Source: Pseudomonadota bacterium
GTDB lineage: Bacteria > Pseudomonadota > Alphaproteobacteria > Rhodobacterales > Rhodobacteraceae
NCBI GenBank assembly: GCA_020161615.1
Contig: JAIUPD010000001.1
Coordinates: forward strand, 248,001-312,000
Reading direction: 5' to 3'
DNA: 64,000 nucleotides
This document shows positions 6,560 through 60,202 of the stretch, piece by piece. Under the pieces are notes generated by a model. The model saw only the letters and a program-made list of their open reading frames with translations, ran no database searches and was not told the origin of the DNA. The position numbers and the translations under genes were made by a program. The number at the start of each line of letters is the position of its first letter. Position 1 is the stretch's first letter.

Positions 6560-7009
6560 GTGTCCCTGATCTTTGTCGGCCTTGGCGCCCTTCTGCTGCT
6601 GGCGCTGCTCAAGCGGTCGTTCCGGCTGATGATGGGGCTGGGCGGCGGAATGATCGCGGCCGCGCTGGGGCTGCAGGGCGGCGGGGATTCCGCCACCGCG
6701 CCGCGCCGCTCGCCCCCTGCCGAGGCCCGTCCCTGGGAGACGGCACCCGGAACCGAACGGCTCTGGGTCACGACCGACCGGCTGCACCGCCGGACCTGTC
6801 CCTCGACTGAGTGCGGCAGCGTCGGGCGGCTGGCGCTGGGCGAGGGGGTCACGGTGCGCGAGATCCAGAACGGCTGGGCGCGGATCAGCGATTCCTACGA
6901 CGCCGCCTGCCGGGGCGGCGACAGCGGCATGGTCGAGACGGGGAATGCCGCCTGCACGCCGGACAACGGGATCGAGGGTGGGCGGCTCGCTGAATGGGTC
7001 TCGGCCTAG
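6560..7009 (+). CDS. SH3-like domain protein with N-terminal membrane segment
   Basis: 149 residues starting at GTG 6560, which has GGAG five bases upstream. An N-terminal hydrophobic stretch (residues 2-17 and again 25-37) acts as a membrane anchor or uncleaved signal. A proline- and arginine-rich linker follows, then a small SH3b-like region (VTTDRLHRRTCPSTECG ... LALGEGVTVREIQNGWARI), which usually binds peptidoglycan peptides or partner proteins. Four cysteines (two in that region, two near the C-terminus) suggest disulfides in the periplasm. Function unknown. Confidence 0.7.
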   Translation: MSLIFVGLGALLLLALLKRSFRLMMGLGGGMIAAALGLQGGGDSATAPRRSPPAEARPWETAPGTERLWVTTDRLHRRTCPSTECGSVGRLALGEGVTVREIQNGWARISDSYDAACRGGDSGMVETGNAACTPDNGIEGGRLAEWVSA

Positions 7010-22033: not shown

Positions 22034-23980
22034 ATGACCGAGGCACGGCCCATCCTCTGGGCGCCATCGCCCGAGCGGGCGCAAGCAACCCGCATGGCGG
22101 ATTTTATCCGCTGGCTAGACGCCGAACGCGGCCTTTCCTTCGCCGATTACAACGCGCTCTGGCGCTGGTCGGTCGGCGATCTGCCGGGCTTCTGGTCGGC
22201 ACTGGTCGAGTACGCCGGGCTCGATATCCGGGGCCATGGCGCGGTTCTGGGGCGGCGCGAGATGCCCGGGGCGGAATGGTTCCCGGGCGCCCTCTGCTCT
22301 TTCGCCGGGCAGGTGCTGGCCAACGCCCGAATACATCCCGACGAGCCGGCGCTGATCGGGATTTCCGAGACCTTCGGCCGCCGGGTGCTGACCTGGCATG
22401 CGCTGGCACGGGAGGTGGCGGTCAAGGCGGGCGGTCTCAGGTCGCTGGGCGTGGGGCAGGGGGACCGGGTGGTCGCCATCCTGCCCAACACGATGGACTC
22501 CATGGTCGCTTTCCTGGCGGTCACCAGCCTGGGCGCGATCTGGTCGCAGGCGGCGCCCGACATGGGGCCGACCGCGGTGCTGGACCGTTTCCGCCAGATC
22601 GAGCCCAAGGTGCTGATCGCACAGGACAGCTACACCCTGGCCGGCAAGCCCGTCGACCGCCGACCCCAAATCGAGGGGATCGCTGCGGGCCTGCCCTCGC
22701 TCGTCGCGCGGCTGATGGTGCCGGGGCTGAACGGCCTTTCCCCCGGCTGGGCGGATTGGGCGGCGCTGGCAGGCGAGCCCGTGGCGCCGGTCCCGGTGCC
22801 CTTCGATCACCCGCTCTGGATCGTCTATTCCTCGGGCACCACCGGGAACCCCAAGCCCATCGTGCATGGCCATGGCGGGGTCCTGGTGGAATGCGCGAAA
22901 TCGGCGCTGCACATGGATCTGCACCCGGGCGACCGCTATTGCTGGCTGACCTCCTCGGGCTGGATCATGTGGAACACCCAGTTCTTCGCGCTGATGAACG
23001 GCGCGGCGGTGGTGCTCTTCGACGTGGCGCCGGGCTATCCCGACCTGATGGCGCTGTGGCGCGCCGCGGCGGATGAAAGGCTGACGCATCTGGGCGCGGG
23101 CGCGGCCTTCTATCAATCCTGCCTCAAGGCCGGGATCCAGCCGAAAACGCTGGATCTTTCGGCGCTCAGGCACCTCGGTTCGACCGGCTCGCCTCTCTCG
23201 CCCGAGGGCTATGACTGGATCTATTCTGCGGTGAAATCCGACCTCTGGCTTGCGCCCCTGTCGGGCGGAACCGACCTCTGCGGGGCGTTTGTCGGCGGCA
23301 ATCCGATGCTGCCGGTCAGGGCGGGCGAGATGCAATGCCGCTTCCTCGGCAACGCCGTCCGGGCGTTCGACGAAGCGGGCAACGAGGTTTTCGACCAGGT
23401 GGGCGAGTTGGTCTGCACCGAGCCTTTGCCCGCCATGCCCCTGTATTTCTGGAACGATCCCGGCAACCGCCGCTATCTGGACAGCTATTTCGACACCTAC
23501 CCGGGCGTCTGGCGCCACGGCGACTGGATCGAGATCACGGCCGAAGGCGGCGCGGTGATCTATGGCCGCTCGGATGCGACGATCAACCGGCACGGGCTGC
23601 GGCTGGGCTCGTCCGAGATCTATCGCGTGGTCGAGGCGCTGGACGAGATCGCCGATTCGCTGGTCATTGATTGCGAATATCTGGGGCGGGCCAGCTTCAT
23701 GCCGCTTTTCGTCGTGCCCGCCCCGGGCGTGACGCTGGACGAGGCGCTGAAAGACCGCATCCGCGCCCGGATCCGGTCCGAGGTTTCGCCCCGCTTCGTG
23801 CCCGACCTGATCGAGGCTCTGCCCGAGGTGCCGCGCACCCTGTCGGGGAAAAAGCTGGAAGTGCCGGTAAAGAAACTCTTCCTCGGCGGCGATCCGGCCC
23901 GGGTGGTGAACCGCGATTCCATGGCCAACCCGGACAGCTTCGACTGGTTCGTCGCTTGGCACCGCGCACGCGGGGCTTGA
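22034..23980 (+). CDS. Acetoacetate-CoA ligase (acetoacetyl-CoA synthetase)
   Basis: 648 residues, in the long subclass of AMP-forming synthetases (acetyl-CoA synthetase-like). The P-loop is [20 protein letters not shown] at about residue 270; LTSSGWIMWNTQFFAL and GSTGSPLSPEGYDWIYSAV follow and are typical of acetoacetyl-CoA synthetases; the C-terminal catalytic lysine region is RTLSGKKLEVPVKKL. A GGAGG ribosome site lies before ATG 22034. It activates acetoacetate for ketone-body or polyhydroxybutyrate metabolism. It is the last chromosomal protein gene before the prophage. Confidence 0.95.
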   Translation: MTEARPILWAPSPERAQATRMADFIRWLDAERGLSFADYNALWRWSVGDLPGFWSALVEYAGLDIRGHGAVLGRREMPGAEWFPGALCSFAGQVLANARIHPDEPALIGISETFGRRVLTWHALAREVAVKAGGLRSLGVGQGDRVVAILPNTMDSMVAFLAVTSLGAIWSQAAPDMGPTAVLDRFRQIEPKVLIAQDSYTLAGKPVDRRPQIEGIAAGLPSLVARLMVPGLNGLSPGWADWAALAGEPVAPVPVPFDHPLWIVYSSGTTGNPKPIVHGHGGVLVECAKSALHMDLHPGDRYCWLTSSGWIMWNTQFFALMNGAAVVLFDVAPGYPDLMALWRAAADERLTHLGAGAAFYQSCLKAGIQPKTLDLSALRHLGSTGSPLSPEGYDWIYSAVKSDLWLAPLSGGTDLCGAFVGGNPMLPVRAGEMQCRFLGNAVRAFDEAGNEVFDQVGELVCTEPLPAMPLYFWNDPGNRRYLDSYFDTYPGVWRHGDWIEITAEGGAVIYGRSDATINRHGLRLGSSEIYRVVEALDEIADSLVIDCEYLGRASFMPLFVVPAPGVTLDEALKDRIRARIRSEVSPRFVPDLIEALPEVPRTLSGKKLEVPVKKLFLGGDPARVVNRDSMANPDSFDWFVAWHRARGA

Positions 23981-24011
23981 GCGCCCCGGCCCGCCTGCTA
24001 TGAGGGGACGG

Positions 24012-24097
24012 GGCCGCTTGCTGGAATGGTAGACAGACCGGACTTAAAATCCGTTGCCCGGATGGGCGTGAGGGTTCGAGTCCCTCAGCGGCTACCA
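24012..24097 (+). tRNA. tRNA-Leu (anticodon UAA)
   Basis: A complete cloverleaf: a 7-bp acceptor stem GGCCGCT with AGCGGCT (one G-U pair), anticodon loop CTTAAAA with anticodon TAA at 24045-24047, a long variable arm with stem GCCC/GGGC, T-arm GAGGG/CCCTC with TTCGAGT, and an encoded CCA end at 24095-24097. The long variable arm is a class II (Leu/Ser) feature. An integrase gene begins its 3' end 91 bases downstream, so the 3' half of this tRNA is the likely attachment site. Confidence 0.93.
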
Positions 24098-24147
24098 CCA
24101 CCCATGAACGATGCACGAACATGCTTTGAAAACATTGGGTAATTTTC

Positions 24148-24181
24148 GGCGTGGTACAGTCGCGCCTTTTGGCGTGGTACA
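24148..24181. repeat. Pair of 11-bp direct repeats near attL (integrase arm-site candidates)
   Basis: GGCGTGGTACA occurs at 24148-24158 and 24171-24181, 23 bp apart (about two helical turns), between the tRNA end and the integrase stop. Position and spacing fit arm-type integrase or excisionase sites. Confidence 0.5.
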
Positions 24182-24187
24182 CTTTTC

Positions 24188-25231
24188 TCAGCCGAGAAGC
24201 CCGTCGATCCGGTCAACGACCGATTCCGCCAGTCCTGCCCGGGCGGCGCTGCGGACATAGATCTTGGTTTCGGGGCTGCCCATTTCGTGGCCCAGCAGGA
24301 CGTCAATTTCGCCCGAGGGCGCGCCGCCGGCTGTAAGCATGGCAGCGATACCCTTGCGTACACCGTGCAGGCTGCGACCCTTTAGCCCGGCGGCATCGGC
24401 CCAGCCACGGAAGGCGTTGCCAAGACCGGCCGCGGTGTAGGGGGCGCCGAATGACGTCAGCACGTAGGTCATGTTCCCATGTCCCGCCAGATCGGCGAGC
24501 AGGGCGCGGGACATGGGCATTTCGACCACGTCATGGGGCGCCTTGTTCTGGGTCCAGCGAAGCCACCGGCGCCCGTCCCTGGTGAACTCGTGCTGCCGCC
24601 CCAACTGGCACAGGTCGCCGCGCCGCGCGGTCGTGCAGGCCGCAAGGATCAGCGCGCGGCGGGCCATGGTTCCGGCCCCGTGGTGGTCAAGATAGGCGGC
24701 AATGTCCTCGGCCGACCACGGCGCGAAGCCGGGCGTCTTCTTGCTGAGCCGCTTCACGTCGCGGGCCGGGTTTTCGCAGGTCACGTACTCGCGCTGGATC
24801 GCCCAGAGGTAGAGGCCCGAAATCGCCTTCAGCAGATTGTCGGCCGCTGCCGGCGTGCCAGCGAACTTGTCGGCCAGCTTGATCACTGCCGACCGCGGCA
24901 TGTTGGCGTCCTTGGCCCCGTATTCGTCGACCAGCCGCCCCAGGTGGTGCCGCTTGCCTTTCAGTGTGAGGGGCGAGGCGAGCCGGGCTGCGACCTTGCG
25001 TTCCAGATCCGCGAGGAACAGACCGACCAGCCATTCGACCGAGCCGCGCGTGGCCTTGGGGGTCACCACCGGCACGTTGTCGATCAGCGCGGCATAGTGT
25101 TCGTGGAACTCCCGGCTGCCGGGCTCGCCCCGCAGCGTCGTGACCTTCCCGTCCCGCCGGAAGCGGTAACGAACCGCGCCCGATGGCAGGCGTTCGGTGG
25201 TCACGTATTTCAGGCGCACGTCGTCTACCAT
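24188..25231 (-). CDS. int: Tyrosine recombinase (prophage integrase)
   Basis: 347 residues. The C-terminal catalytic domain shows the tyrosine recombinase residues: Arg-203 in ACTTARRGDLCQL, His-289 and Arg-292 in SLHGVRKG, His-315 in LLGHEMGSPETKIY and the nucleophile Tyr-325. The N-terminal part contains an AP2-like arm-binding region (RYRFRRDGKVTTLRGEPGS) and a SAM-like core-binding helical domain (about 62-165). The gene points toward the tRNA-Leu attachment site, the usual layout. Its start overlaps a 58-residue gene by 7 bases. Confidence 0.95.
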   Translation of the reverse strand: MVDDVRLKYVTTERLPSGAVRYRFRRDGKVTTLRGEPGSREFHEHYAALIDNVPVVTPKATRGSVEWLVGLFLADLERKVAARLASPLTLKGKRHHLGRLVDEYGAKDANMPRSAVIKLADKFAGTPAAADNLLKAISGLYLWAIQREYVTCENPARDVKRLSKKTPGFAPWSAEDIAAYLDHHGAGTMARRALILAACTTARRGDLCQLGRQHEFTRDGRRWLRWTQNKAPHDVVEMPMSRALLADLAGHGNMTYVLTSFGAPYTAAGLGNAFRGWADAAGLKGRSLHGVRKGIAAMLTAGGAPSGEIDVLLGHEMGSPETKIYVRSAARAGLAESVVDRIDGLLG

Positions 25232-25474: not shown

Positions 25475-25699
25475 TCATCCTGATTGCCATCCGCCAGTGT
25501 TGTAACCCACCTTGAAGCCGGTGTTTCTTGCATCCGAGACCATGTCAGCGACGATCACGAGGGCTGCATGCAGCGGAACCGGTCGGGCACCCTCGTCCAG
25601 ACGACCCTGGCACCACTCGATCAACGCCGCGCGTAAGCGCTCCTCCTCAGAGGTCAGGCTTTCGCTGCCGAAGAGCAGCGCCCTGTTTCCGTCGCTCAT
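25475..25699 (-). CDS. Small phage protein, unknown
   Basis: 74 residues. The start overlaps the stop of the ParB-domain gene as ATGA, so translation is likely coupled. The sequence has an acidic helix (SEEERLRAALIEWCQGRL) and a second helix (HAALVIVADMVSDARN). No family is recognised. Confidence 0.55.
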   Translation of the reverse strand: MSDGNRALLFGSESLTSEEERLRAALIEWCQGRLDEGARPVPLHAALVIVADMVSDARNTGFKVGYNTGGWQSG

Positions 25700-27546
25700 T
25701 CGTTGCCCTCCTCCACCGCCGGCCACTGCAGCTGCTCGGGCAGCCAGGCGTCGAGGCGGGCGTTGGTGGCGCGGTCGAGGCCGAGGGCTTCGCGGAAGTC
25801 TGCCTCGTTGAACAGGCGATGCAGGATCGTGGCCTTTTCGCCCTTCTTCTTGGTCTGGAAATCCATCCCCTCGCGGCGGTCGGCCGGGACCAGCTCGTCC
25901 CAAAGGCTGTCCAGATGCGGCACCGGCAGGCGCTTGAAGAAGTCGTCGGCCGTGGGGGTCCAGATCTCACGCGGGTTCGGCTTCAGCTGGGCAGCAAGGA
26001 CCGGTGCGAGTTCGCGGTGTGGGGTCAGCGTGCGGGCAAGCCCTCGGGTCATGTCCTCATTGCGGTGCTTCTTGCCCAGGGCGCGAAAGGCTGCGAAGCC
26101 CTCGGCCGTGACGCGGCCGAGATCGCGCGCAGGGTCGGCCAGCGACTCGGGCAGTTCCAGCCCGTCTGCCTTCTCCGGGGTGATGGGCTGGCGGTCTAGG
26201 GTGATGCGAAGGGGCGTGTCCCATGCCGAGAAGCCACCCGACGCTAGATACCCCAGCAAGTCCAGCATCAGCTCGGGTTGTGTCGCCGCACGGTGCTGCA
26301 AAGCGGCAAGGCGGATCTTGTGCAGGTCCTCGATCAGCCCGGAGGACAGCGCCTTGGTTTCGACCTTGCCGCCGCCCGTGGCGCGCTCGGCCGGGGTTGC
26401 CTCGGGATCGTCCTGTGGGTGGCGGTAGGGGCCTTCGATCTCGAACTTGCCGCTGTGGTCGAGGTAGAGCCAGAGGCCCGATGTCTCGCGGTCCTCGTCC
26501 GACCAGTCGCCATTGGCGCGGTCTTCCAGCGCTTCCATCCGGGCGAACTCAGCAGGGGTCATTCCCCCTCTCTCGCTGCGGGCGTGCAGTTCCTCCAGCT
26601 CGGCCGCGTCAGCCTCGGGCAGATCCATCGGCTGACGATAGACACGCTGCAGGCGCATCTTGTGGGCAATGTTGTAGCTGTCCGCGGGCCGTTCCTCGAC
26701 CCATTTCCAGCCCTCGGCCAGCCGCGCCTCGATCTCGGCCGCCATGCGCTGTGCGACCAGCTCGTCCAGGATACCCTCGTCCAAGAGCCGCACCTGGTCA
26801 GAAAACAGATCCTCCTGCAGCGTGCCGCCAGCGGCGCGATAGGCCTCGATGCCCACCAGCTTCACGCGCCGGTCGTCGGTGCGGATCGAGGCTTTCTGCA
26901 GCCGGTCGCGGATGAAGCTGGCGGTGGTCTCCCAGCTCGCCGCGCCGGGGCGCAGGACCTGCTGCAGGACCTCGGCCGCCGCCTCGTTGGTCGGGGCCAG
27001 GGTCAGGGCCGCGGCATGGTCGAGGCCGATCTTACCCTCGCGCAGGGCGTCCAGTGCGCTGGGTGGCAACTGTGCGAGTTTCAGGCGCTGGCGAACGTGG
27101 CGCCCGGACACGGCAAAGGCGCGGGCGATGGTGTCGGGGTCGGCACCCTTCGCGGCCATCCGACCGTAGGCGCGGACCTCGTCGGCCGGGTGCAGCGCGG
27201 CGCGGGCGGCATTCTCGGCGCTCGCCCAGAGGCGGGCGGTGTCTTCGTCGGGCGCAACCTTGACCGGGACGCGGGTTTCGTCGAGCGAGCGGTCTTCCCG
27301 CATCGCCAGCAGGATCATCGCGCGTAGGCGGCGGCCGCCGGCAACGATGCCGAGTTTGCCCGGTTGTGCTGGATCGAACCACCCGTTGAGGTTCTGCAGG
27401 AGGCCGATCGCCTCGATCGAGGAGGCCAGGGCCTCGATATCGGCGGGCGGCGGTTCGGAGCGGGTGTTAAGCGGGTGCAGGTAGCAGTCGGCCAGCGGGA
27501 CGAGGGCGGTGGTGGCCTCGGCCGAAGGGGGCGGGGATTGCAGCAT
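25696..27546 (-). CDS. ParB/Srx N-terminal-domain protein of prophage
   Basis: 616 residues. The first 110 residues have the ParB-N pattern: VPLADCYLHPLNTRSEPPP, then IEALASSIEAIGLLQNLNG and the phosphate-binding box VAGGRRLRAMILL. A helix-turn-helix region follows (DPDTIARAFAVSGRHVRQRL, about residues 135-155). The remaining 450 residues are long, charged and helical, unlike short plasmid ParB proteins. No parA is nearby, so a partition role is not supported; related proteins in phages are CTPases, nucleases or regulators. The gene sits in the repressor-controlled left operon. It shares an identical 18-bp start region with the next upstream gene. Confidence 0.8.
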   Translation of the reverse strand: MLQSPPPSAEATTALVPLADCYLHPLNTRSEPPPADIEALASSIEAIGLLQNLNGWFDPAQPGKLGIVAGGRRLRAMILLAMREDRSLDETRVPVKVAPDEDTARLWASAENAARAALHPADEVRAYGRMAAKGADPDTIARAFAVSGRHVRQRLKLAQLPPSALDALREGKIGLDHAAALTLAPTNEAAAEVLQQVLRPGAASWETTASFIRDRLQKASIRTDDRRVKLVGIEAYRAAGGTLQEDLFSDQVRLLDEGILDELVAQRMAAEIEARLAEGWKWVEERPADSYNIAHKMRLQRVYRQPMDLPEADAAELEELHARSERGGMTPAEFARMEALEDRANGDWSDEDRETSGLWLYLDHSGKFEIEGPYRHPQDDPEATPAERATGGGKVETKALSSGLIEDLHKIRLAALQHRAATQPELMLDLLGYLASGGFSAWDTPLRITLDRQPITPEKADGLELPESLADPARDLGRVTAEGFAAFRALGKKHRNEDMTRGLARTLTPHRELAPVLAAQLKPNPREIWTPTADDFFKRLPVPHLDSLWDELVPADRREGMDFQTKKKGEKATILHRLFNEADFREALGLDRATNARLDAWLPEQLQWPAVEEGNE

Positions 27547-27885
27547 GGGGACCTCTGGGGAAAGAGGGGCGGTTTAAACCGTCCGGATGTTGATGCCGTA
27601 CCGAGCGGCCAGCTCGTTCTCATAGGCTTCGGCCTCGCGCTCGGCGCCGTCGGCCATCGCCTCGAAGTACTCCAGCTCACTGAACACGCCCTTGGCGATC
27701 AGGAGGCGCGCAAGACCGCCCATGTCCGCCTTCGACATATCGATCCCGACCCGAAGGTGCTTCGGGCTGCGGTTCTCGTGCTCGGGGAACGCCCAGATGG
27801 CAGTCTGGACGCGATGGGCGGCGCGCTCATAGCGTTCCTTTGCTTGGATCTTCCTTGCTTGGTCGGACATGGGGACCTCTGGGGA
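27544..27885 (-). repeat. Duplicated 18-bp translation-start leader
   Basis: CATGGGGACCTCTGGGGA occurs at 27544-27561 and at 27868-27885. On the minus strand each copy ends in the ATG of a gene (the ParB-domain protein and the 98-residue protein) and supplies the AGAGG ribosome site. Confidence 0.7.
27574..27870 (-). CDS. Hypothetical phage protein
   Basis: 98 residues, mostly charged and helical (RKIQAKERYERAAHRVQTAI; then a C-terminal helix ELEYFEAMADGAEREAEAY). It starts with an AGAGG leader identical to that of the ParB-domain gene downstream. It belongs to the left operon. No family recognised; a regulatory or DNA-associated role is only a guess. Confidence 0.6.
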   Translation of the reverse strand: MSDQARKIQAKERYERAAHRVQTAIWAFPEHENRSPKHLRVGIDMSKADMGGLARLLIAKGVFSELEYFEAMADGAEREAEAYENELAARYGINIRTV

Positions 27886-27962: not shown

Positions 27963-28160
27963 TCAGGCGGGGAGGCCGAGGTCGCGCAGAAAACGGCGGG
28001 CGCGGCCAATGTCGAAGGCGGTGCCGAGGTCGATCATGACGCGGGCGGCGTCTGCCCGGGCCTCGTTACCGGCCGAGTGATCCTCGAACTGCTGGCGGGC
28101 GGCGACCAGCTGGCCCGCGCGAGGCATGAGGGCGAGGGCGCCGTGAGCGTCAGCGTTCAT
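27963..28160 (-). CDS. Small phage protein, unknown
   Basis: 65 residues, helical. Its start overlaps the stop of the acyl-carrier-like gene (ATGA), which supports it being real. The C-terminal section (DIGRARRFLRDLGLPA) is preceded by a hydrophobic helix (AARVMIDLGTAF). No family is recognised. Confidence 0.5.
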   Translation of the reverse strand: MNADAHGALALMPRAGQLVAARQQFEDHSAGNEARADAARVMIDLGTAFDIGRARRFLRDLGLPA

Positions 28161-28477
28161 GCGGCATCCTCCGGCAGCAGGGCCGCGCCGTCGGCCTCGG
28201 CATCGCGGTAGAGGGCCGGGTTATCGACGGGCCCCCGAGGCCGGGCGGTCCGCGCGGCGATCACCTGGGCGAGGTCGCCGACGGTGGCGATCTCTTCAAC
28301 CGCCGCATCCTCGATGTCGATGCCGTGCGCTTCTTCGGCCGCGACGACCAGCTGCCATTTGTCGAGGCTGTCGATCTGCAGGTCGGGCAGGGCCGTGTCG
28401 GCGGTCAGGAAGCGGCCTTCGAGGCGTGGGAACTCGGCGACGATCAGGTCGGCCGCGCGGGCGATAGCGGCATCCAT
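28157..28477 (-). CDS. Acyl carrier protein-like protein of prophage
   Basis: About 106 residues. The centre matches the acyl carrier protein fold closely: a helix I region (IARAADLIVAEF), a loop, then the phosphopantetheine attachment motif LQIDSLDKWQLV with the serine in DSL, followed by AAEEAHGIDIEDAAVEEI and TVGDLAQVIAAR, which align with helices II-IV of bacterial ACP (compare the known ADSLDTVELV and TTVxDAxxYI patterns). The modified serine is residue 37 from ATG 28477 (38 from GTG 28480). It lies second in the left operon and is coupled to both neighbours. No acyltransferase, synthetase or ACP synthase is seen in the prophage part of the window, so any cargo would have to be loaded by host enzymes. 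Confidence 0.72.
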   Translation of the reverse strand: MDAAIARAADLIVAEFPRLEGRFLTADTALPDLQIDSLDKWQLVVAAEEAHGIDIEDAAVEEIATVGDLAQVIAARTARPRGPVDNPALYRDAEADGAALLPEDAA

Positions 28478-28605
28478 CACGCGGCCCTCCGGCAGGAGCG
28501 GAAAGGGAAATTCAGCTGGCGGCGCTCACGCTGGCGGACGCGCCAGGCGATCCAGCGGCCTCGGGCCTCGGGATCGGCGACGATGGCAGGAAGGGGGTTG
28601 GGCAT
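28477..28605 (-). CDS. Short basic phage peptide, first gene of the left operon
   Basis: 42 residues: MPNPLPAIVADPEARGRWI followed by a strongly basic stretch (WRVRQRERRQ). The stop overlaps the next start as TGATG. ATG 28605 lies about 63 bases after the predicted transcription start. Longer in-frame versions (ATG 28710) would include the promoter and operator and are rejected. Function unknown; it might bind nucleic acid. Confidence 0.45.
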   Translation of the reverse strand: MPNPLPAIVADPEARGRWIAWRVRQRERRQLNFPFRSCRRAA

Positions 28606-28675: not shown

Positions 28676-28703
28676 AGAATAGCGGTTAAAAAACCGCTGT
28701 CAA
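28676..28703 (-). promoter_or_regulatory. Left early promoter with operator O1 in the spacer
   Basis: On the minus strand TTGACA (28698-28703), a 16-base spacer and TATTCT (28676-28681). The spacer is filled by the palindrome at 28681-28698, so repressor binding should block polymerase. It drives the left operon (short peptide, ACP-like, 65-aa, 98-aa, ParB-domain protein and on toward int). Confidence 0.7.
28681..28698. promoter_or_regulatory. Operator O1
   Basis: AGCGGTT-AAAA-AACCGCT, a perfect inverted repeat with 7-bp arms and 4-bp centre, located inside the left early promoter. Confidence 0.7.
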
Positions 28704-28710
28704 CAAACAA

Positions 28711-28728
28711 TGCGGTATTATAACCGCA
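28711..28728. promoter_or_regulatory. Operator O2
   Basis: TGCGGTA-TTAT-AACCGCA, the same 7-4-7 design as O1 with one arm mismatch, centred 30 bp from O1. It overlaps a TATAAT sequence on the minus strand. Confidence 0.65.
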
Positions 28729-28809: not shown

Positions 28810-29226
28810 TCAGGCCCGGCCTAGGTCATTTAGGACGCGGTGGCCACGATCTTCCATGCAACGATCGACCACGCGCCTCGGGCCATACGTAACAAGGTCG
28901 TTCGAATACTCGCTCGCACCGGCGCCGGCAGCTGCGCCGCTCGCCGCCCCGTATGCCGCCCAGTCACTGTTTCCACCGATCGCCGCACCGGCAACTGCGC
29001 CGACTAGGATCCCAATCATCAGGTTCCGCCCGAGTTCCTCGTTCTGGCGCCGTTGGTAGTCTGCCTCGACTTGGGTCGCGATGGCGAGGCAGGCGTCCAA
29101 ATCGGATTCGTATCGCGCTTGATTCGAGCGAGACGGATCGACGACGGGGCGGTAGTCGGTCAATGGCTGAGGCGGCGCGCACGCGGCGAGGGCGAGGGCT
29201 GCGAGGGGGACAAGAATAATCTTCAT
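28810..29226 (-). CDS. Prophage lipoprotein with glycine-zipper segment
   Basis: 138 residues. The N-terminus MKIILVPLAALALAAC is a lipoprotein signal (lipobox LAAC). A soluble helical region with ARYESDLDACLAIATQ follows, then a glycine-rich hydrophobic segment (GILVGAVAGAAIGG; AYGAASGAAAGAGASEY) of the glycine-zipper type, and a C-terminal RCMEDRGHRVLN. It lies downstream of the repressor on the same strand with its own terminator, so it is probably expressed in the lysogen. A role in superinfection exclusion or envelope change is inferred from the position only. Confidence 0.75.
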   Translation of the reverse strand: MKIILVPLAALALAACAPPQPLTDYRPVVDPSRSNQARYESDLDACLAIATQVEADYQRRQNEELGRNLMIGILVGAVAGAAIGGNSDWAAYGAASGAAAGAGASEYSNDLVTYGPRRVVDRCMEDRGHRVLNDLGRA

Positions 29227-29301
29227 GCGAGAGTCTTTCACAGGGTAACAACTACCCATAGAACCGCTTCGTTCACAGGAATGTCAACTCGGCGAATCCG
29301 C

Positions 29302-29940
29302 TCACACGCGGCGAACAAACTCCGCAGGCAGGTGAAGTCGGACTGGCGCTGCCCATCTGAGATGAACGTCCAGCAGGTTTTGTCCTGTCGGATTGGCAGA
29401 GAGCAGGTTGAAGAGGCCCTTTGCAGTGCCGGTTTTCACTTGCTTTACCCATGCCCGGCCTTCCGAATCCTCGGCAATACAGATGCGATTGAGGGCCTCC
29501 GTGGGCACACCCAGAGCCGGACGGGTATAGAGCAGGATGTCACCTGGTTGATAGACCGGCTCCATCGACGTGCCTTCGATCTCGACGGCGACCATGCCCG
29601 ACGGCTCGATCTGCGGCGGGCAGGCGATATGATAGAGGCCATCTCCCTTGGCATGATCATCTACCAGATGGACAGTGGCGCCCGCGCCTACCTTGCCTGC
29701 CACCGCTACCGATCTCGCAGGGAAGTCTTGGCCGAGAAGCCATTCTGTCGTGACCCCGAGGACCGGAGCCAGTTCCACCAGCTTGGACAGCTTCCCTGGG
29801 AACGGCTTGCCATCGAGCCTGGTACGCTGCCAGTTTCGAATCAGGTCGGCCGAATTGCCGCTCTGAATTGATGCCTGCCGGGCGGTGAGTCCCGTGGCTT
29901 CCAGTCTGCTCTCGATCCGGTCAAGAATATCGTAGTCCAT
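29302..29940 (-). CDS. LexA/CI-type prophage repressor with S24 peptidase domain
   Basis: 212 residues. An N-terminal helix-turn-helix (ILDRIESRLEATGLTARQAS ... ADLIRNW, ending with TEWLLG) is followed by an S24 domain: Ser-125 in EGTSMEPVYQPGD and Lys-166 in RAWVKQVKTG form the catalytic dyad, and an Ala-Gly pair (Ala-81/Gly-82 in VAVAGKVGAG) is the likely self-cleavage site. The prophage should therefore be induced by DNA damage through RecA. ATG 29940 was chosen: the upstream extension would read through the operators. No strong ribosome site precedes it, and operator O3 begins next to the start codon, which suggests autoregulation. Confidence 0.9.
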   Translation of the reverse strand: MDYDILDRIESRLEATGLTARQASIQSGNSADLIRNWQRTRLDGKPFPGKLSKLVELAPVLGVTTEWLLGQDFPARSVAVAGKVGAGATVHLVDDHAKGDGLYHIACPPQIEPSGMVAVEIEGTSMEPVYQPGDILLYTRPALGVPTEALNRICIAEDSEGRAWVKQVKTGTAKGLFNLLSANPTGQNLLDVHLRWAAPVRLHLPAEFVRRV

Positions 29941-29941
29941 T

Positions 29942-29959
29942 TGCGGTTTTTCTACCGCG
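29942..29959. promoter_or_regulatory. Operator O3
   Basis: TGCGGTT-TTTC-TACCGCG, same layout as the other operators with imperfect arms, directly beside the repressor start codon. Confidence 0.55.
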
Positions 29960-29976
29960 AAAGGCTCGCCTGCGCA

Positions 29977-29994
29977 CGCGGTTATAAAACCGTT
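29977..29994. promoter_or_regulatory. Operator O4
   Basis: CGCGGTT-ATAA-AACCGTT, a degenerate copy centred 23 bp from O5. It overlaps a TATAAC sequence on the minus strand that could be the -10 box of the repressor gene. Confidence 0.6.
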
Positions 29995-30021
29995 GACGAT
30001 GCGGTTATTAAACCGCATAAC
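29993..30021 (+). promoter_or_regulatory. Right early promoter with operator O5 in the spacer
   Basis: TTGACG (29993-29998), a 17-base spacer and CATAAC (30016-30021). O5 fills the spacer, the mirror image of the left promoter. The next gene starts at 30029, only 7 bases after the -10 box. Confidence 0.6.
29999..30018. promoter_or_regulatory. Operator O5
   Basis: ATGCGGTT-ATTA-AACCGCAT, perfect 8-bp arms and the best match of the five copies to a consensus TGCGGTTnnnnAACCGCA. Confidence 0.75.
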
Positions 30022-52794: not shown

Positions 52795-53204
52795 TCCGTA
52801 AGACCCCCGGCTGGCAGGCGCGACTGGCGGCCTGCCTCGCGGCCTCGGCGCGATCCGACTTTGCGCTCGGTCAGCTCGATTGCGCCCTGCACGGCGCCTC
52901 GGCGCTGGCGGCAATGACCGGCGTTGACCTGGCCGCGCCCTATCGCGGCCGCTACCGCACCCTGCTCGGCGGGCTGCGGCACCTGCGGCGCGACGGCTAT
53001 GCCGATCACATCGCTCTCGCCGCGGCGCATCTGCGCCAGCGCGACCCGGGTGAGGCGCCCCGGCCGGGCGACCTGGCCGTGGTCGAGACCGACGCGGGGC
53101 CCGCGCTCGGCGTCGTGCAGGGGGCGTCACTCTACCTCCGCAGCCCCGCGGGGCTGGGTCTGCTGCCCGTGAGCCGGGCCTCCATCATCTTCGAGGTGCC
53201 GTAA
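52791..53204 (+). CDS. DUF6950/NlpC-P60-like tail protein
   Basis: 137 residues. FALGQLDCALHGASALAAMTG with VDLAAPYRGRYRTLLGG is the pattern of DUF6950 and of NlpC/P60-like tail-tip peptidases, in which the Asp-Cys pair (Cys-31 region) supplies the catalytic cysteine. A histidine near PGDLAVVETDAGPALGVVQG, usual for the active protease, is not evident, so the enzyme may be inactive and purely structural. It overlaps both neighbours. Confidence 0.65.
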   Translation: MIRKTPGWQARLAACLAASARSDFALGQLDCALHGASALAAMTGVDLAAPYRGRYRTLLGGLRHLRRDGYADHIALAAAHLRQRDPGEAPRPGDLAVVETDAGPALGVVQGASLYLRSPAGLGLLPVSRASIIFEVP

Positions 53205-56200
53205 TGCCAGCCGTCGTCAGCGCGATCAGTGGGGTCTTTGCCGCGGTCAGCTCCAGCGCGATCGGCTCGATCGCCTTGCGCTTGCTCGGCTCCGTGGCGC
53301 TGTCGGCGCTCTCCCAGGCTCTGGCGCCTCAGCCCAAGCCCTCGGGCCTGCGCACCGAGGACACGCTGTCCGGCGGCACCACGCCCGAGGCCTTCATGCT
53401 GGGCGCCACGGCGACCGGCGGGACCATGGTCTGCCCGCCGATGTCGCACGGCAGCGCGGGCAAGACGCCCAACGCCTACCTCACCTATGTGATCGAGCTG
53501 GCGGGGATCCCGGGGCACCAGCTGGACGGGCTGATCCTCAACGGCGAGCGGGTCGCGATCCTGACCGACGCGCCGCACCCGGATTACGGCCAGCGGATCG
53601 GCGGAGCCTACGAGGGGCGGGCCTGGATCCGCTATCATGACGGCAGCCAGACCACCGCCGACGCGATGCTGCTGGCGAAATACCCCGCGCCCTTTGTCCG
53701 GCCCTGGTCGGCCGACATGGTGGCTGAGGGCATTTGCTACGCTGTCCTGACCTTCCGCTATGACCGGGAGGTGTTTCAGGGCTGGCCGCAATGCCGGTTC
53801 GAGGTGAGCAGCGTCCCGCTCTACGACCCGCGCCGGGACAGCTCGGTTGGCGGGGAGGGCGTCCACCGTTGGGGGCAGCGTGAGACCTATGTGCCGTCGA
53901 ACAACACGGCGGTGCAGATCTACAACGCGGCGCGGGGCATTGCGCTGCCGTCGGGCGACATCTGGGGGGGCGATATCCCGGCCGAGGACCTGCCGCTGGC
54001 GGTCTGGATCGCTGCCATGGACGCTGCCGATTCCGCGGCGGACGATGGCGCGGGCGGCACCGAAGCCGCCTTCCGCTCGGGGATCGAGGTGCAGGTCGCC
54101 GATGAGCCGTTCGCGGTGATCGAGGAGCTGCTCAAAGGCTGCACGGGCGTCCTGACGGAGACCGGCGGCGTCTGGTCGCTGCGCCTCGGCGGGCCCGGCC
54201 TGCCGGTCCTGTTCCTTGAGGATGACGGGATCATCGCCGATGAGCCGGAGGATTTCGCGCCGTTTCCGCCGATTGAGCAGATCTTCAACGCGATCTCGGC
54301 CACACATCCGGACCCGGCGAGCCTCTGGGAAAGCCGGGAATCCGAGCTGCGGACCAACCCGACCTGGGAGGCCGAGGACGGTGGGCGCCGCCTGCCGACC
54401 GCGCTGTCCATGCCGACCGTGCCCTATCCGGTGCAGGTCGATCGTGTCTGCGCCGCCCTGATCGCCGATCACCGGCGGATGCGCCGCCATGTCATCACGC
54501 TCGACACGCCTGGCGCGGTGCTGGAGGCGGGCGATACCATCGCCTGGACGAGCGCGGCCAATGGATATGACGGCAAGCTCTTCGAGGTGACCGAACCCAT
54601 CCGCGACCTGATCACCCAGCAGGTGCGGGCCTCGCTGCGCGAGGTCGATCCCGGGGATTACGACCCGCCCTCCGGACTGGTGCGGCCGAACGTGCCGGTG
54701 CCCACCCCGGTGCGCCCGGCCGTGCAATCGGTGCCCGGCTTTGCGGTCAGCCCCTATGTTCTTGATGTGGAGGGCGAGGCGCGTCGCGCGGGCATCCTGG
54801 CGCTCTGGGATCCCGAGGGCGCAGATGATGCCCGCGGCCTCAGGATTGCCATCCGCCGGGCAGGGGAGGGTGGCGACGGCGACGAGCGGCCGCCCTATCT
54901 GGTGCCCGCCGGTATGGCCGTCATCACCGAGGGCCTGGTCGCCGGGGACTATGAGGTTCGCGCGCGGCTCAGGGTGGACCGGCCGACCAGCTGGACCGCC
55001 TGGCTGCCCGTCACCGTGGCCGACGTGCGCCTGGGGCTGGTCGAGCTTTCGACCGAGATCGTCGGCTGGCTGGGCTCGCTGCAGGAATGGATCGACGGCG
55101 GCGTCACCGACCTGCCGGGCGATCTGGCCTCGCTGAGCGAGGCGCTGAGCGCCGAAGCCCTGGCCCGCGCCGCAGCGATCGCGGCCGAGGCCGAGGCTCG
55201 CGCCACCGCTCTTGCCGCCGAAGCGCAGGCCCGGGCCGATGGCCTGCTCGCCGCCGCCAATGCCCTGGCGGCCGAATCGCAGGCCCGGGCCGAGGCGATC
55301 GCGGCAGAAGCCGCGACCCGCGCCGCCGCCCTGGCGAATGAGGCCTCGACCCGCGCCGCAGGGCTGCTTGAGGTGTCGGAGGCCGTCGAAGCGGAAGCCG
55401 AAGCGCGCGCCGACGGCCTGGCCGCCGAGGCTCAGGCCCGGGCGGAGGATATCGCCGGGGTCAACGTCGATCTCTCGGCCGAGACCGCCGCCCGCGTGGC
55501 GCTCGCGCAAGAGACCGCCGCGACCCTCCGGGACCAACGTGACCGGATTCGCGCTGTCGCGCTCGAGGTCGTGGAGCTGGGCAGCCAGGCCCATCTGGCG
55601 CGGGAGGAGTTGCGGCAGTCGATCAGCGCCCAGGTCGGCGACATCCGCGCGACCTATGACGCGCAGATCCTGACCCTTGCCGACGAGGCCTCGGCGCTGG
55701 CCGCGCGGCTGGTGACGATTGAGGCGAGCTCGGACGCGCTGGCGGTGCAGATCGCCCAGGTGGATCAGGCGCGCATCGCCGGCGACGAGGCCCTGGGCCA
55801 GCTGATCACCGCGGTCAGCGTCGGCACGGCCACGCAATTCGATCACGCGCGGATCTGGTACTGGGATGACGCACCCGAGGGCTGGACCGGTGAGCCTGTC
55901 GCGCCCTCGGTCACTGCCTCCGGGTGGCTGCGCCCCGGGCCTGCCTCCTCTGTGCTGTCTCCCGGGGGCCTTGCCATTGCTGGCGGCGCCTATCGCCAAG
56001 TCCGGGCGCGGATCCGCCGCGTCGGCGTCCCGGTCTGGGAGGGGGCGCTGTGGTGGGCCGGCGAGGGCGAGACCTGGGACGAGGCCCGTCGCGTGGTGCT
56101 GGGGGTGCCCGATTACGACGACAATATCGGCCTTCTGACTTGGGCGCCACAATGGACCGGCCAGATTGACCGGATCCGCATCGATCTCGCTGACGGTGCC

Positions 56201-59200
56201 GACGCCTCCAATTATTTCGAGCTCGACTGGTTGGCGATTGGCCGACCGGCTCCCGGCGCATCCTCGGCCGAACTGCTGGCCGAGCAGGTGGCGCGCATCG
56301 CGGCCGACGAGGCCGAAGCTGCCGAGCGCCTCCTCCTGGCCGCGCGGCTCTCCGGTGTCGAGGGTGTGGCGGCTGGTGCGGCCGAGGCGGCGGAAGAGCT
56401 GGACGCCCGGGTCACCGAGACGGAGGGCGGGATCGAGGCGCTGTCCGGCCGAACCGCCGCGCTTGAGGCGACGGTCGATGACCCGACCTCGGGCCTCGCG
56501 GCGACGGCCGCCGCGCTGGAGACGCTGGTGTCCCGGGTCGAGGCGCTGGACGATGGCTCGCAGGTCCTGCTGGCCGAGGCGATCCGCAACCTCAGGACCT
56601 CGCTCCGTCAGGTTGCACTGGAAAATCTGGAGGCTGATGCACAGGCCGCGCTGGAGACGCAGGCCGTCCGCGAATATATCGCCGAGGCCTCCGAGACCCT
56701 GACCACGCGGATCGACGCGACCGACGGCGTGGTCGAGGTCCTGGCCGAGGCCGTCACCCTGCTGCAGGCGGCGATCCCGGGCCTCGCCACGGCCGAGGCC
56801 CTGGCCGCGCTCAGCGCCAGCGTCACTGACCAGGGCGGGATCCTGGAGGCGGTGGTCGCGGCCCAAGACAGCCTGACGGTCTCGGTCGAGGATCTGACGA
56901 CCGGCCTTGCCGCCAATGGCGCTGCCATCGACGCGGTGGAGGTCCGCACGACCGCGGCCGAGGGCGAGATCGCTTCCCAGGGTACGCGGCTTTCCAGCGT
57001 GGAGACTGGGGTCTCTGACCTGGAAACCGGCCAGGCCGCGAACGGCGCGGCGATCGAGGCGGTCGAGATCCGCACCACGGCGGCCGAAGGCGAGATCGCC
57101 TCGCAGGGCACGCGGCTGTCGAGCGTCGAGACGGGCGTCTCGGATCTGGAGACCGGCCAGGCCGCCAACGGCGCTGCCATCGAGGCGGTCGAGCTGCGCA
57201 CCACCGCGGCCGAGGGCGAGATCGCCTCGATGGGCACGCGCCTGTCCAGCGTCGAGACCGGGGTGTCGGATCTGGAGAACGGCCAGGCCGCCAATGGCGC
57301 GGCGATCGAGGCGGTCGAGATCCGCACCACGGCGGCCGAGGGCGAGCTGGCCTCGCAGGGCACGCGGCTGTCGAGCGTCGAGACCGGTGTGTCGGATCTG
57401 GAAACCGGCCAGGCCGCCAACGGCGCTGCGATCGAGGCGGTCGAGATCCGCACCACGGCGGCAGAGGGCGAACTGGCCTCCCAGGGCACGCGGCTGTCGA
57501 GCGTGGAAACCGGGGTCTCGGATCTGGAAACCGGGCAAGCCGCGAACGGCGCGGCGATCGAGGCTGTTGAGGTCCGTACCACGGCGGCCGAGGGCGGGAT
57601 CGAGGCGCTGTCCGGTCGGACGGCCGCGCTGGAGGCGACGGTCGATGATCCGGCCTCGGGCCTCGCGGCGACGGCCGCCGCGCTCGAGACCCTGGTGTCC
57701 CGGGTCGAGGCGCTGGACGATGGCTCGCAGGTCCTGCTGGCCGAGGCGATCCGCAATCTCAGGAGCTCGCTCCGCCAGGTTGCGCTGGAAAATCTGGAGG
57801 CTGATGCACAGGCCGCGCTGGAGACGCAGGCCGTGCGGGAGTACATCGCCGAGGCCTCCGAGACCCTGACCACGCGGATCGACGCGACCGACGGCGTGGT
57901 CGAGGTCCTGGCCGAGGCCGTCACCCTGCTGCAGGCGGCGATCCCGGGCCTCGCCACGGCCGAGGCGCTGGCCGCGCTCAGCGCCAGCGTCACCGATCAG
58001 GGCGGGATCCTGGAGGCGGTGGTCGCGGCCCAAGACAGCCTGACGGTCTCGGTCGAGGATCTGACGACTGGCCTCGCCGCCAACGGCGCTGCCATCGACG
58101 CGGTGGAGCTGCGCACGACGGCGGCCGAGGGCGAGATCGCCTCGCAAGGCACGCGGTTATCCAGCGTCGAGACCGGGGTTTCGGATCTGGAGACCGGGCA
58201 AGCCGCGAACGGCGCTGCGATCGAGGCGGTGGAGATCCGAACGACGGCAGCCGAGGGCGAGATCGCTTCGCAGGGCACCCGGCTGTCGAGCGTCGAGACC
58301 GGCGTCTCTGACCTGGAAACCGGACAGGCCGCCAATGGCGCCGCGATCGAGGCGGTCGAGATCCGCACCACCGCGGCCGAGGGCGAGATTGCCTCGATGG
58401 GCACGCGGCTGTCGAGCGTCGAGACCGGCGTCTCGGACCTGGAGACCGGACAGGCCGCGAACGGCGCGGCGATCGACGCGGTGGAGCTGCGCACGACGGC
58501 GGCCGAGGGCGAGATCGCTTCGCAGGGCACGCGGCTGTCGAGCGTCGAGACCGGCGTCTCGGATCTGGAAACCGGCCAGGCGGCCAACGGTGCTGCCATC
58601 GAGGCGGTCGAGCTGCGCACCACCGCGGCCGAGGGCGAGATCGCCTCGCAAGGCACGCGCCTGTCGAGTGTCGAGACCGGTGTCTCAGACCTGGAGACAG
58701 GCCAGGCCGCCAACGGCGCCGCCATCGACGCGGTGGAGGTCCGCACGACAGCGGCCGAGGGCGAGATCGCCTCGCAGGGTACGCGGCTGTCGAGCGTGGA
58801 AACCGGCGTCTCGGACCTGGAGACCGGCCAAGCCGCCAATGGCGCTGCCATCGAGGCGGTGGAGATCCGCACCACGGCCGCCGAGGGCGAGATCGCCTCG
58901 CAAGGGACCCGCCTGTCGAGCGTCGAGACCGGTGTGTCGGATTTGGAGACCGGGCAGGCCGCCAATGGCGCTGCCATCGAGGCGGTCGAGCTGCGCACCA
59001 CCGCGGCCGAGGGCGAGATCGCCTCGCAAGGCACCCGGCTATCCAGCGTCGAGACCGGCGTCTCGGACCTGGAGACCGGGCAAGCCGCCAATGGTGCGGC
59101 GATCGAGGCCGTCGAGGTCCGTACCACGGCCGCCGAGGGTGAGATCGCCAGCCTGGTCGTGGCGCAGACGGCTCTGTCCGCAGAGATCGCTGACAAGGCG

Positions 59201-60202
59201 GATGCCGCAGTCGTCGCCGGGCTGACCGCCCAGGTGACCGAGATCGACGGCGAGGTCGCGGCGCTCTCGGGCGCGACGACCATCGTGCAGGCGGCGGTGC
59301 AAGGGGCCAACCTGATCGCCAACGGCAGTTTCGCGGGTGGAACGCTCACAGGCTGGGCCGCGGTTGCGCCGGGGATGATGGTGATCGCCCGCGATCCCGG
59401 GTCGGTGACCCCGGCCGAGGCCCTGGCGCCGACGCCGCATGTCCTGCGGATCGCTCAGTCGGCCAGCGCCCAGACGGCGGATGTCGCGGTCGCCGTGCCG
59501 GTGACGCCGGGCGAGATGCTGCGCGCCTCGCTGCTGCGGGCGGCCAGCGGGTCCACACGCAACGTGACACTCAGCCTGTCAGCGATCTGGCTCGATGCCT
59601 CGGGGGCGGCGGTCGGCTCGCCCCAGACGCTGCTGACGACGCTGGTCACCGCGACCGCCTGGGCGCGGGCCACGGGCGATGGGGTCGCGGTCCCGGCCGG
59701 GGCCGTCGCGGTGACGCTGCGCCTGACCCGGGCCGGGGGCGGCGCGGGCAATGGCTGGGTGACCGGCCTCAAGGCCGAGCGCGACGGGCTCGGCCTGTCG
59801 GACATCACTGCCAGTGGCCTCTTCAAGATGGAATCGGTCGCGGGTCCCTCAGGCTACAGCCGCCTCCGTCTGGTCGGCCGCACCAGCACGGCGGAAATCT
59901 ACCGCGAGGCAGGGCTCTATATCGACACGCCGGTTGATCCCGGCGAGCCCTCGCGCGTGGCGGTCCAGGCCGATCAATTCGCGATCCTCGGCCCCAGCGG
60001 CGCGATCACGCCGTTTATCGTCGACGGCAGCGCGATCTACCTGACCGGCTCGGCGATCCGCCTGACCGGGGACACCGAGGTCGACGGGACCTTTGGTATC
60101 CGCTCCGGCACCAGTGGGGAGAGGGTCGAGATCGATGCAAGCGGCCTCAAGGTCTTCGATGCAGCGAACGTCCTTCGTGTCTTGATCGGAGATCTGAGCT
60201 GA
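53204..60202 (+). CDS. Giant tail-tip/fibre protein (gpJ-like) with repeat coiled coil
   Basis: 2,332 residues, by far the longest gene. Residues 1 to about 620 resemble the gpJ/hub attachment part: hydrophobic start (AISGVFAAVSSSAIGSIALR), FMLGATATGGTMVCPPMSHG, DGLILNGERVAI, YNAARGIALPSGDIWGGDIP and TGVLTETGGVWSLRLGGPGL. Residues about 640-760 are an alanine-rich coiled coil (AARATALAAEAQARADGL-like units). Then come a 179-residue module present twice and two arrays of a 42-residue repeat. Residues about 2040-2180 include a jelly-roll-like carbohydrate-binding section (NLIANGSFAGGTLTGW). The last 130 residues (FKMESVAGPSGYSRLRLVGR; VAVQADQFAILGPSGAITPF) resemble the end of lambda gpJ. It should reach from the tail tip toward the cell surface. 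Confidence 0.9.
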   Translation: MPAVVSAISGVFAAVSSSAIGSIALRLLGSVALSALSQALAPQPKPSGLRTEDTLSGGTTPEAFMLGATATGGTMVCPPMSHGSAGKTPNAYLTYVIELAGIPGHQLDGLILNGERVAILTDAPHPDYGQRIGGAYEGRAWIRYHDGSQTTADAMLLAKYPAPFVRPWSADMVAEGICYAVLTFRYDREVFQGWPQCRFEVSSVPLYDPRRDSSVGGEGVHRWGQRETYVPSNNTAVQIYNAARGIALPSGDIWGGDIPAEDLPLAVWIAAMDAADSAADDGAGGTEAAFRSGIEVQVADEPFAVIEELLKGCTGVLTETGGVWSLRLGGPGLPVLFLEDDGIIADEPEDFAPFPPIEQIFNAISATHPDPASLWESRESELRTNPTWEAEDGGRRLPTALSMPTVPYPVQVDRVCAALIADHRRMRRHVITLDTPGAVLEAGDTIAWTSAANGYDGKLFEVTEPIRDLITQQVRASLREVDPGDYDPPSGLVRPNVPVPTPVRPAVQSVPGFAVSPYVLDVEGEARRAGILALWDPEGADDARGLRIAIRRAGEGGDGDERPPYLVPAGMAVITEGLVAGDYEVRARLRVDRPTSWTAWLPVTVADVRLGLVELSTEIVGWLGSLQEWIDGGVTDLPGDLASLSEALSAEALARAAAIAAEAEARATALAAEAQARADGLLAAANALAAESQARAEAIAAEAATRAAALANEASTRAAGLLEVSEAVEAEAEARADGLAAEAQARAEDIAGVNVDLSAETAARVALAQETAATLRDQRDRIRAVALEVVELGSQAHLAREELRQSISAQVGDIRATYDAQILTLADEASALAARLVTIEASSDALAVQIAQVDQARIAGDEALGQLITAVSVGTATQFDHARIWYWDDAPEGWTGEPVAPSVTASGWLRPGPASSVLSPGGLAIAGGAYRQVRARIRRVGVPVWEGALWWAGEGETWDEARRVVLGVPDYDDNIGLLTWAPQWTGQIDRIRIDLADGADASNYFELDWLAIGRPAPGASSAELLAEQVARIAADEAEAAERLLLAARLSGVEGVAAGAAEAAEELDARVTETEGGIEALSGRTAALEATVDDPTSGLAATAAALETLVSRVEALDDGSQVLLAEAIRNLRTSLRQVALENLEADAQAALETQAVREYIAEASETLTTRIDATDGVVEVLAEAVTLLQAAIPGLATAEALAALSASVTDQGGILEAVVAAQDSLTVSVEDLTTGLAANGAAIDAVEVRTTAAEGEIASQGTRLSSVETGVSDLETGQAANGAAIEAVEIRTTAAEGEIASQGTRLSSVETGVSDLETGQAANGAAIEAVELRTTAAEGEIASMGTRLSSVETGVSDLENGQAANGAAIEAVEIRTTAAEGELASQGTRLSSVETGVSDLETGQAANGAAIEAVEIRTTAAEGELASQGTRLSSVETGVSDLETGQAANGAAIEAVEVRTTAAEGGIEALSGRTAALEATVDDPASGLAATAAALETLVSRVEALDDGSQVLLAEAIRNLRSSLRQVALENLEADAQAALETQAVREYIAEASETLTTRIDATDGVVEVLAEAVTLLQAAIPGLATAEALAALSASVTDQGGILEAVVAAQDSLTVSVEDLTTGLAANGAAIDAVELRTTAAEGEIASQGTRLSSVETGVSDLETGQAANGAAIEAVEIRTTAAEGEIASQGTRLSSVETGVSDLETGQAANGAAIEAVEIRTTAAEGEIASMGTRLSSVETGVSDLETGQAANGAAIDAVELRTTAAEGEIASQGTRLSSVETGVSDLETGQAANGAAIEAVELRTTAAEGEIASQGTRLSSVETGVSDLETGQAANGAAIDAVEVRTTAAEGEIASQGTRLSSVETGVSDLETGQAANGAAIEAVEIRTTAAEGEIASQGTRLSSVETGVSDLETGQAANGAAIEAVELRTTAAEGEIASQGTRLSSVETGVSDLETGQAANGAAIEAVEVRTTAAEGEIASLVVAQTALSAEIADKADAAVVAGLTAQVTEIDGEVAALSGATTIVQAAVQGANLIANGSFAGGTLTGWAAVAPGMMVIARDPGSVTPAEALAPTPHVLRIAQSASAQTADVAVAVPVTPGEMLRASLLRAASGSTRNVTLSLSAIWLDASGAAVGSPQTLLTTLVTATAWARATGDGVAVPAGAVAVTLRLTRAGGGAGNGWVTGLKAERDGLGLSDITASGLFKMESVAGPSGYSRLRLVGRTSTAEIYREAGLYIDTPVDPGEPSRVAVQADQFAILGPSGAITPFIVDGSAIYLTGSAIRLTGDTEVDGTFGIRSGTSGERVEIDASGLKVFDAANVLRVLIGDLS
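56423..58112 (+). repeat. Large duplicated module in the fibre gene
   Basis: A segment of about 520 bp starting at 56423 recurs at 57590, exactly 1,167 bp (389 codons) later. By eye the encoded modules differ at only two residues (DPTSGL/DPASGL; LRTSL/LRSSL) and at a number of silent sites. The offset equals the 179-residue module plus five 42-residue repeats. Confidence 0.9.
56909..57595 (+). repeat. 42-residue repeat array 1 (five full units plus a partial)
   Basis: 126-bp units beginning at 56909 encode AANGAAI(D/E)AVE(V/I/L)R followed by TTAAEGE(I/L)AS(Q/M)G and TRLSSVETGVSDLE(T/N)GQ. Five complete units are followed by a partial sixth from 57539. Six heptads per unit suggest a trimeric coiled coil. 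Confidence 0.95.
58076..59152 (+). repeat. 42-residue repeat array 2 (eight full units plus a partial)
   Basis: The same 126-bp unit from 58076, eight full copies and a partial ninth from 59084. Within-array protein identity is nearly complete while the codons differ at many third positions. Confidence 0.95.

Follow-up and report, generated by a model that had tools for sequence, protein, structure and literature searches.

What would a prophage do with an acyl carrier protein (ACP)? The question is raised by the prophage in the stretch of DNA analyzed here, the whole of which (64,000 nucleotides) is referred to below as the window, where an ACP gene lies second in an operon that also encodes a ParB-like protein and the integrase. 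The genes of this operon that bear on the question are as follows.

28157..28477, minus strand: acyl carrier protein (ACP), 106 aa (PF00550, phrog_5934, fold and relatives)
28477..28605, minus strand: 42-aa Arg-rich peptide, first gene of the operon (six-row alignment, charge, model and junction)
27963..28160, minus strand: 65-aa protein downstream of the ACP, found together with the ACP tail
27574..27870, minus strand: 98-aa protein of no known family, same operon
25696..27546, minus strand: ParB-like phage protein, same operon (PF17762; phrog_7783, 2.7e-53)
24188..25231, minus strand: tyrosine integrase (phrog_1, 4.9e-23), adjoining tRNA-Leu (24012-24097)

The prophage carries a genuine ACP gene. 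The protein consists of an ACP domain (approximately residues 1-76) and an extra C-terminal tail (residues 77-106), with a DSLD motif at residues 36-39 (D36-S37-L38) in which Ser-37 is the expected 4'-phosphopantetheine site. An earlier note on this DNA, made by a model from the letters alone, had described an ACP-like protein of 106 residues with a DSL serine, and this is confirmed by PF00550 (30.1 bits, E 5.9e-7, above the curated cut-off of 20.8), by the best PHROG match (phrog_5934, 'acyl carrier protein', 5.9e-10, residues 22-77), by phmmer matches to ACPs in the PDB (2.2e-6) and by several NCBIfam ACP models, the best at 8.1e-11 and all of them below their own cut-offs. Among the latter is TIGR00517, the model for the AcpP of fatty-acid synthesis, which gives 39.9 bits against an equivalog cut-off of 70.45. 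Reading frames on the plus strand that overlap the gene were set aside; the conserved domain comes from the minus frame. The structure model, built from four alignment rows, is only fair (mean pLDDT 69, pTM 0.56) and predicts helices at residues 3-15, 18-23, 37-51, 57-61, 66-77 and 87-95, consistent with the four-helix ACP fold. Foldseek returned 350 PDB matches at E ≤ 10 (best E 1.7e-3, none at E ≤ 0.001), the best 50 of which are, judged by their titles, ACPs or ACP-containing complexes; some of the complexes are taken to contain an ACP. PADLOC gave no match for either the ACP or the ParB-like protein and hence a defense or counter-defense label is not supported.

Read from the promoter, the operon runs from the 42-aa basic peptide through the ACP, the 65-aa and 98-aa proteins, the ParB-like protein and a 102-aa frame, the start of which is unsure (relatives match residues 45-102 only), to the integrase next to tRNA-Leu. 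Its description as tightly overlapping holds at three junctions, those of the 42-aa peptide with the ACP (1 nt, TGATG), of the ACP with the 65-aa protein (4 nt) and of the 102-aa frame with the integrase (7 nt), but not elsewhere, where gaps of 92, 27 and 162 nt set apart the 98-aa, ParB-like and 102-aa frames. The 98-aa protein has no match in Pfam or PHROG. The remaining prophage is ordinary, with a primase, terminase gpA, portal, S49 protease, gpT-like head protein and tail proteins, and a Pfam scan of 30 frames in the region shows no acyl- or CoA-handling protein besides the ACP, in agreement with the note's view that no enzyme to load or use an acyl group is visible. The integrase and a 2332-aa tail protein were scanned against PHROGs, the integrase also against NCBIfam, and a partner enzyme among the frames outside the Pfam scan could be missed. 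The tail protein (53204-60202) matches a phage glycerophosphodiester phosphodiesterase (phrog_4896) at about 1910-1993; no other match in the prophage was seen to relate to lipids. No repeat of at least 15 bp that might mark the right end is shared by 23951-24200, around tRNA-Leu, and the window beyond 30000; no DNA relatives were found in plasmids, and the only close phage match at the DNA level is one of 97 bp in the ParB gene, in two records.

Whether the ACP could be made only at certain times depends on its promoter, the control features of which are listed here.

29302..29940, minus strand: S24-type repressor (PF00717, 31.7 bits; phrog_4), frame start not settled
28682..28697: perfect operator, GCGGTTAAAAAACCGC, occupying the spacer of the operon promoter (minus strand; hexamers TTGACA and TATTCT)
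28712..28727: second promoter operator, with one mismatch
29943..30016: three operators where the rightward genes start, close upstream of the repressor gene

The operator consensus GCGGTT-N4-AACCGC occurs perfectly at 28682-28697, where it fills the 16 nt between promoter hexamers read by eye, and at 30001-30016, and with one mismatch at 28712, 29943, 29978 and 11164. Two of these six sites are at the ACP promoter, three are just upstream of the repressor gene, and that at 11164 is outside the prophage. With up to two mismatches there are 13 sites in the window, where 4.4 are expected, and none of 100 shuffles reaches 13. The operator in the ACP promoter is therefore real, and its placement supports the repressor control that had been suggested. 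Another ACP locus (L060) has the same promoter plan with a different palindrome, TGGCCAATTGGCCA, as does a locus with the basic peptide and without the ACP (L138), with the palindrome GGGGATTTTTATCCCC; in the other related loci checked there was no perfect palindrome between promoter-like hexamers, and imperfect ones were seen by eye only. Because operators lie in the promoter and related prophages share the plan, the operon is most likely off in the lysogen and on after induction. Between this operon and the repressor lies a small glycine-zipper protein (28810-29259, minus strand) with Pfam matches below cut-off, which by eye is lipoprotein-like (LAAC) and is possibly a lysogenic-conversion gene. 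In the prophage of genome G395, an HSDR_N-domain protein (L056, 4136-5233) lies just before the operon promoter; it has no PADLOC match.

If the protein functions as a carrier, its serine should be retained among relatives. Of 18 genomes of the genus (taken as Pararhodobacter) that were searched, five yielded intact copies (one each in G000, G394, G395 and G222 and two in G402), six in total with that of the window counted, and all but the nearest have only 31-45% identity to the window ACP. In the alignments used, the rows L057 (A2) and L037 (A5) lack the first Met and L064 (A4) spans stop to stop. DSxD, with its Ser and both Asp residues, is present in 6/6 copies, so the serine proposed for survey is kept throughout, and the Leu of DSL in 5/6, the exception being the nearest copy, from Pararhodobacter aggregans, where DSQ replaces DSL. 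None of the three outcomes that the note had named as refuting it (no significant ACP match, a different fold, the serine lost in most homologues) was thus obtained, the fold being judged from a model that is only fair. The start of the ACP gene overlaps the preceding stop in every intact copy (a 1-nt overlap in four copies, 4 nt in the others), and GGAGG precedes the start in four of the six, with GGGGGG in its place in P. aggregans. These counts exclude a seventh copy, that of G409, which falls into two frames; it has SSF for DSL, and thus keeps the Ser and neither the Asp nor the Leu. In this stretch (L061, G409:C1:2062000-2075000) the N-terminal and core parts are in different frames at about 6710-7005, followed by a weak relative of the 65-aa protein (E 0.0014). 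A 975-aa NACHT-domain protein (L037, 8041-10968, minus strand) adjoins the integrase of the P. aggregans prophage and likewise has no PADLOC match.

Beyond the genus, a profile of the six ACPs was run against 394 genomes that represent the family, in most cases with a single genome per genus, and scored 162.9 and 111.9 bits in the two genomes of the genus and at most 48.4 elsewhere, where the top match is an AcpP; since at most 12 candidates were scored in most genomes, a prophage ACP may have been missed, and one scoring no higher than AcpP would be indistinguishable there. Viral contigs yielded the copies of P. aggregans, on a contig that is identical to the genome for 7.9 kb, and of G395, as well as a distant ACP located on a 175-kb contig. 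Another short ACP (L009, 665-2687, in G348) is located beside frames that by eye resemble a ketosynthase and an acetyltransferase, and no phage gene was noticed within 3.2 kb. A tree of 21 rows, with 2 of 18 inner branches starred, gives the six copies one origin in 18% of 200 bootstraps and does not show a common origin for them.

The host's own AcpP is the obvious protein with which to compare the prophage ACP. The two types are alike in having the ACP domain, DSLD and an acidic pI, and the AcpP of the same genome is 39% identical to the prophage ACP over residues 10-86, but helix II is changed. The residues E41, M44 and E49 (AcpP numbering), which take part in partner contacts, are kept in none of the six prophage copies (one has Asp at 49), while 44 of 44 distinct host AcpP-like sequences keep all three, a count that is circular for E41, which lies inside the motif over positions 33-42 by which these 44 were separated from three sequences of another type among 47, but not for M44 or E49. 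In four ACPs from other phages, position 41 is acidic (4/4) and Met-44 is retained (4/4). Hence the prophage ACPs are not recent copies of AcpP, and their loss of all three residues makes a role as a spare AcpP unlikely; they form a small and varied group that has drifted from the host version. This bears on a published proposal for the acpP of Rhodobacteraceae (roseobacter) prophages, by which it is an auxiliary metabolic gene with which the infecting phage would enhance the lipid or secondary metabolism of its host (Forcone et al., 2021, PMC8224337). The residues retained in the other phages would fit a helper of this kind, but those lost from all six copies here would not, nor would the lack of any fab gene among the scanned neighbors, and we consider this reading improbable. 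The host genome has two matches to the phosphopantetheinyl transferase family PF01648, at 64.8 and 30.2 bits (cut-off 25), and loading of Ser-37 by a host transferase is therefore possible.

The fold might instead have been kept for protein contacts, as a non-enzymatic scaffold or binding protein that does not need the serine. Helix II differs at the very sites common to the AcpPs of the family, the nearest relative has DSQ, and conservation is higher in the tail, beyond the ACP domain, than in the core. For the pair of closest copies, dN/dS amounts to 0.28 in the tail (77-106), against 0.65 in residues 1-76, 0.78 in residues 26-76 and 0.61 over the whole gene. By these values constraint on the core is weak between the two copies, while in the tree most of the change is on the P. 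aggregans branch (0.66 versus 0.053 for the other). The retention of DSxD in six of six intact copies despite heavy divergence would be hard to explain if the serine were dispensable, and although a scaffold is the strongest of the alternatives, we think it rather unlikely.

The locus has also been subject to mosaic exchange. A block of 800 bp with the peptide, ACP and 65-aa genes is common to P. aggregans at 86.6%, and the DNA on either side is unalignable; two more blocks, elsewhere in the window and the P. aggregans prophages, align at 87.2% and 69.7%. The window and G395 ACPs are identical at only 28 of 75 core positions but at 25 of 30 in the tail, so that different ACP cores are, on these alignments, joined to one tail and 65-aa gene, and the tail-less copies (G402 twice and G222) also lack a 65-aa match within the stretch fetched. 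In G222 the ACP is located between the peptide gene and a gene for a 222-aa protein, relatives of which (30-31% identity; E 2e-15 and 1e-17) directly follow the peptide gene in G402 contig 22 and G409. The ACP is thus present at this spot in some loci and absent in others, which would fit an accessory gene. Such exchange, together with the variable presence of the gene, the long P. aggregans branch and the split G409 copy, is what one would expect of a passenger that has no function at present and was caught at a hot spot where the early operon recombines, but six intact reading frames, a start that overlaps the preceding stop in each, and GGAGG before four of the six starts would then be surprising, and we judge this reading quite unlikely.

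We tentatively favor the view that the prophage encodes an altered mimic of ACP, loaded by the host, that acts on a host partner of ACP after induction, although we would not call this probable. The repressor would keep the operon off in the lysogen, and upon its removal the basic peptide and the ACP would be made together, early after induction, by translational coupling at their overlapping genes. A host phosphopantetheinyl transferase would then load Ser-37, and the phage ACP, presumably bearing an acyl group, would engage one or a few host partners of ACP, to the putative benefit of the phage, rather than replace AcpP in fatty-acid synthesis. This reading is favored because the ACP domain and fold, DSxD and the start overlap persist in all six copies despite divergence, because two transferase matches are in the host and an operator is in the promoter spacer, and because E41, M44 and E49 are lost in a prophage with no other acyl or CoA protein among 30 frames. 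Counted against it are the DSQ and GGGGGG of P. aggregans, the SSF of the split copy, the high core dN/dS between the nearest copies (0.65-0.78), even if the change is mostly on the P. aggregans branch, and the partner enzyme that could be missed outside the Pfam scan. On balance we place the mimic ahead of the scaffold, the metabolic helper and the passenger, in that order.

Might the neighboring gene products be partners of the ACP? The 42-aa peptide has a net charge of +7 (+4 to +9 in six loci) and, in a model built from three rows (mean pLDDT 72), a predicted helix at residues 12-31. All six intact ACPs have it upstream, four of them as the adjacent gene and two with a 66-aa gene intervening. 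It occurs without the ACP in two of eight peptide loci, G402 contig 22 and G409 (10 and 12 kb fetched), and the L061 stretch with the split ACP has no match to it, so that an obligate partnership is ruled out. The ParB-like protein was found in 29 of 394 genomes of the family at E ≤ 1e-60, its own genome included, and of 32 loci with a related ParB in other genera, none has an ACP or basic peptide in the fetched stretch, 29 of these having at least 1.7 kb upstream and three (G151, G318 and G072) less than 0.6 kb, which is uninformative. As the G222 locus, in addition, has an ACP without that ParB, the ParB-domain neighbor is not a regular companion of the ACP, and it is rejected as a partner. 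The same ParB-like protein is present over its whole length, at 38% identity, in two phages labeled as cyanophages, Nostoc phage Nsp-JY21 (L041), in which a XerC integrase ends the run of genes with ParB, and Synechococcus phage Sc-Yong805-1. Arg-rich antimicrobial peptides are described as binding helix II of ACP (PMC13256389), and the prophage peptide resembles them in being a predicted basic helix with Arg and Trp, encoded beside an acidic ACP, while its gene occurs also without an ACP. Hence a peptide/ACP pair is conceivable, nothing more. In such a scheme, which we regard as very improbable, the peptide would bind helix II of host AcpP and arrest fatty-acid synthesis after induction, and the phage ACP, an exchangeable core of altered helix II on a constant tail, would be its cognate carrier or buffer and set the dose, so that the phage would reset lipid metabolism or signaling.

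The novelty of the prophage ACP is moderate, and that implied by the note was too high, as phage ACP genes, those of Rhodobacteraceae prophages included, have already been reported (PMC8224337; PMC5463345), and the result is modest as it stands. Such genes recur in unrelated phages and the published accounts found here are proposals rather than tested functions: for Erythrobacter phage vB_EliS-R6L the authors call the function of ACP in phages unclear (PMC5463345), Vibrio phage R16F carries an ACP gene (PMC10152775), and among the matches listed from the open-licence PMC literature no title or start of an abstract reports an experiment on a phage ACP. The present group is a good case for testing directly whether a phage ACP becomes loaded and which partners it has: it is small and intact, a defined repressor apparently makes it inducible, the DSL motif and helix II vary naturally, and a basic peptide is encoded nearby.

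Among the closest known systems, compared by description, are the acpP genes in eight Rhodobacteraceae prophages (Forcone et al., 2021, PMC8224337), which are likewise ACP genes in prophages of the same family. Three of the eight are in the arrangement fabG-acpP-fabF, whereas the gene described here is in a repressor-controlled operon with an integrase and a ParB-like gene; since fabG-acpP-fabF is the host order, these three cases may be host DNA, which also weakens the case for a metabolic helper. ACP genes are annotated as well in Vibrio phages helene 12B3 and VMJ710 and in Prochlorococcus phage P-HM2 (PHROG 5934). These lytic-phage ACPs resemble that of the prophage in matching PF00550 with a DSL motif (31.5-36.1 bits in the three scanned) and in having small genes as neighbors, with no acyl enzyme among four neighboring proteins scanned. 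They are 33-41% identical to the prophage ACP over 48-61% of its length (E 0.005-0.04), and differ from it in helix II, where they retain an acidic residue at 41 and Met-44.
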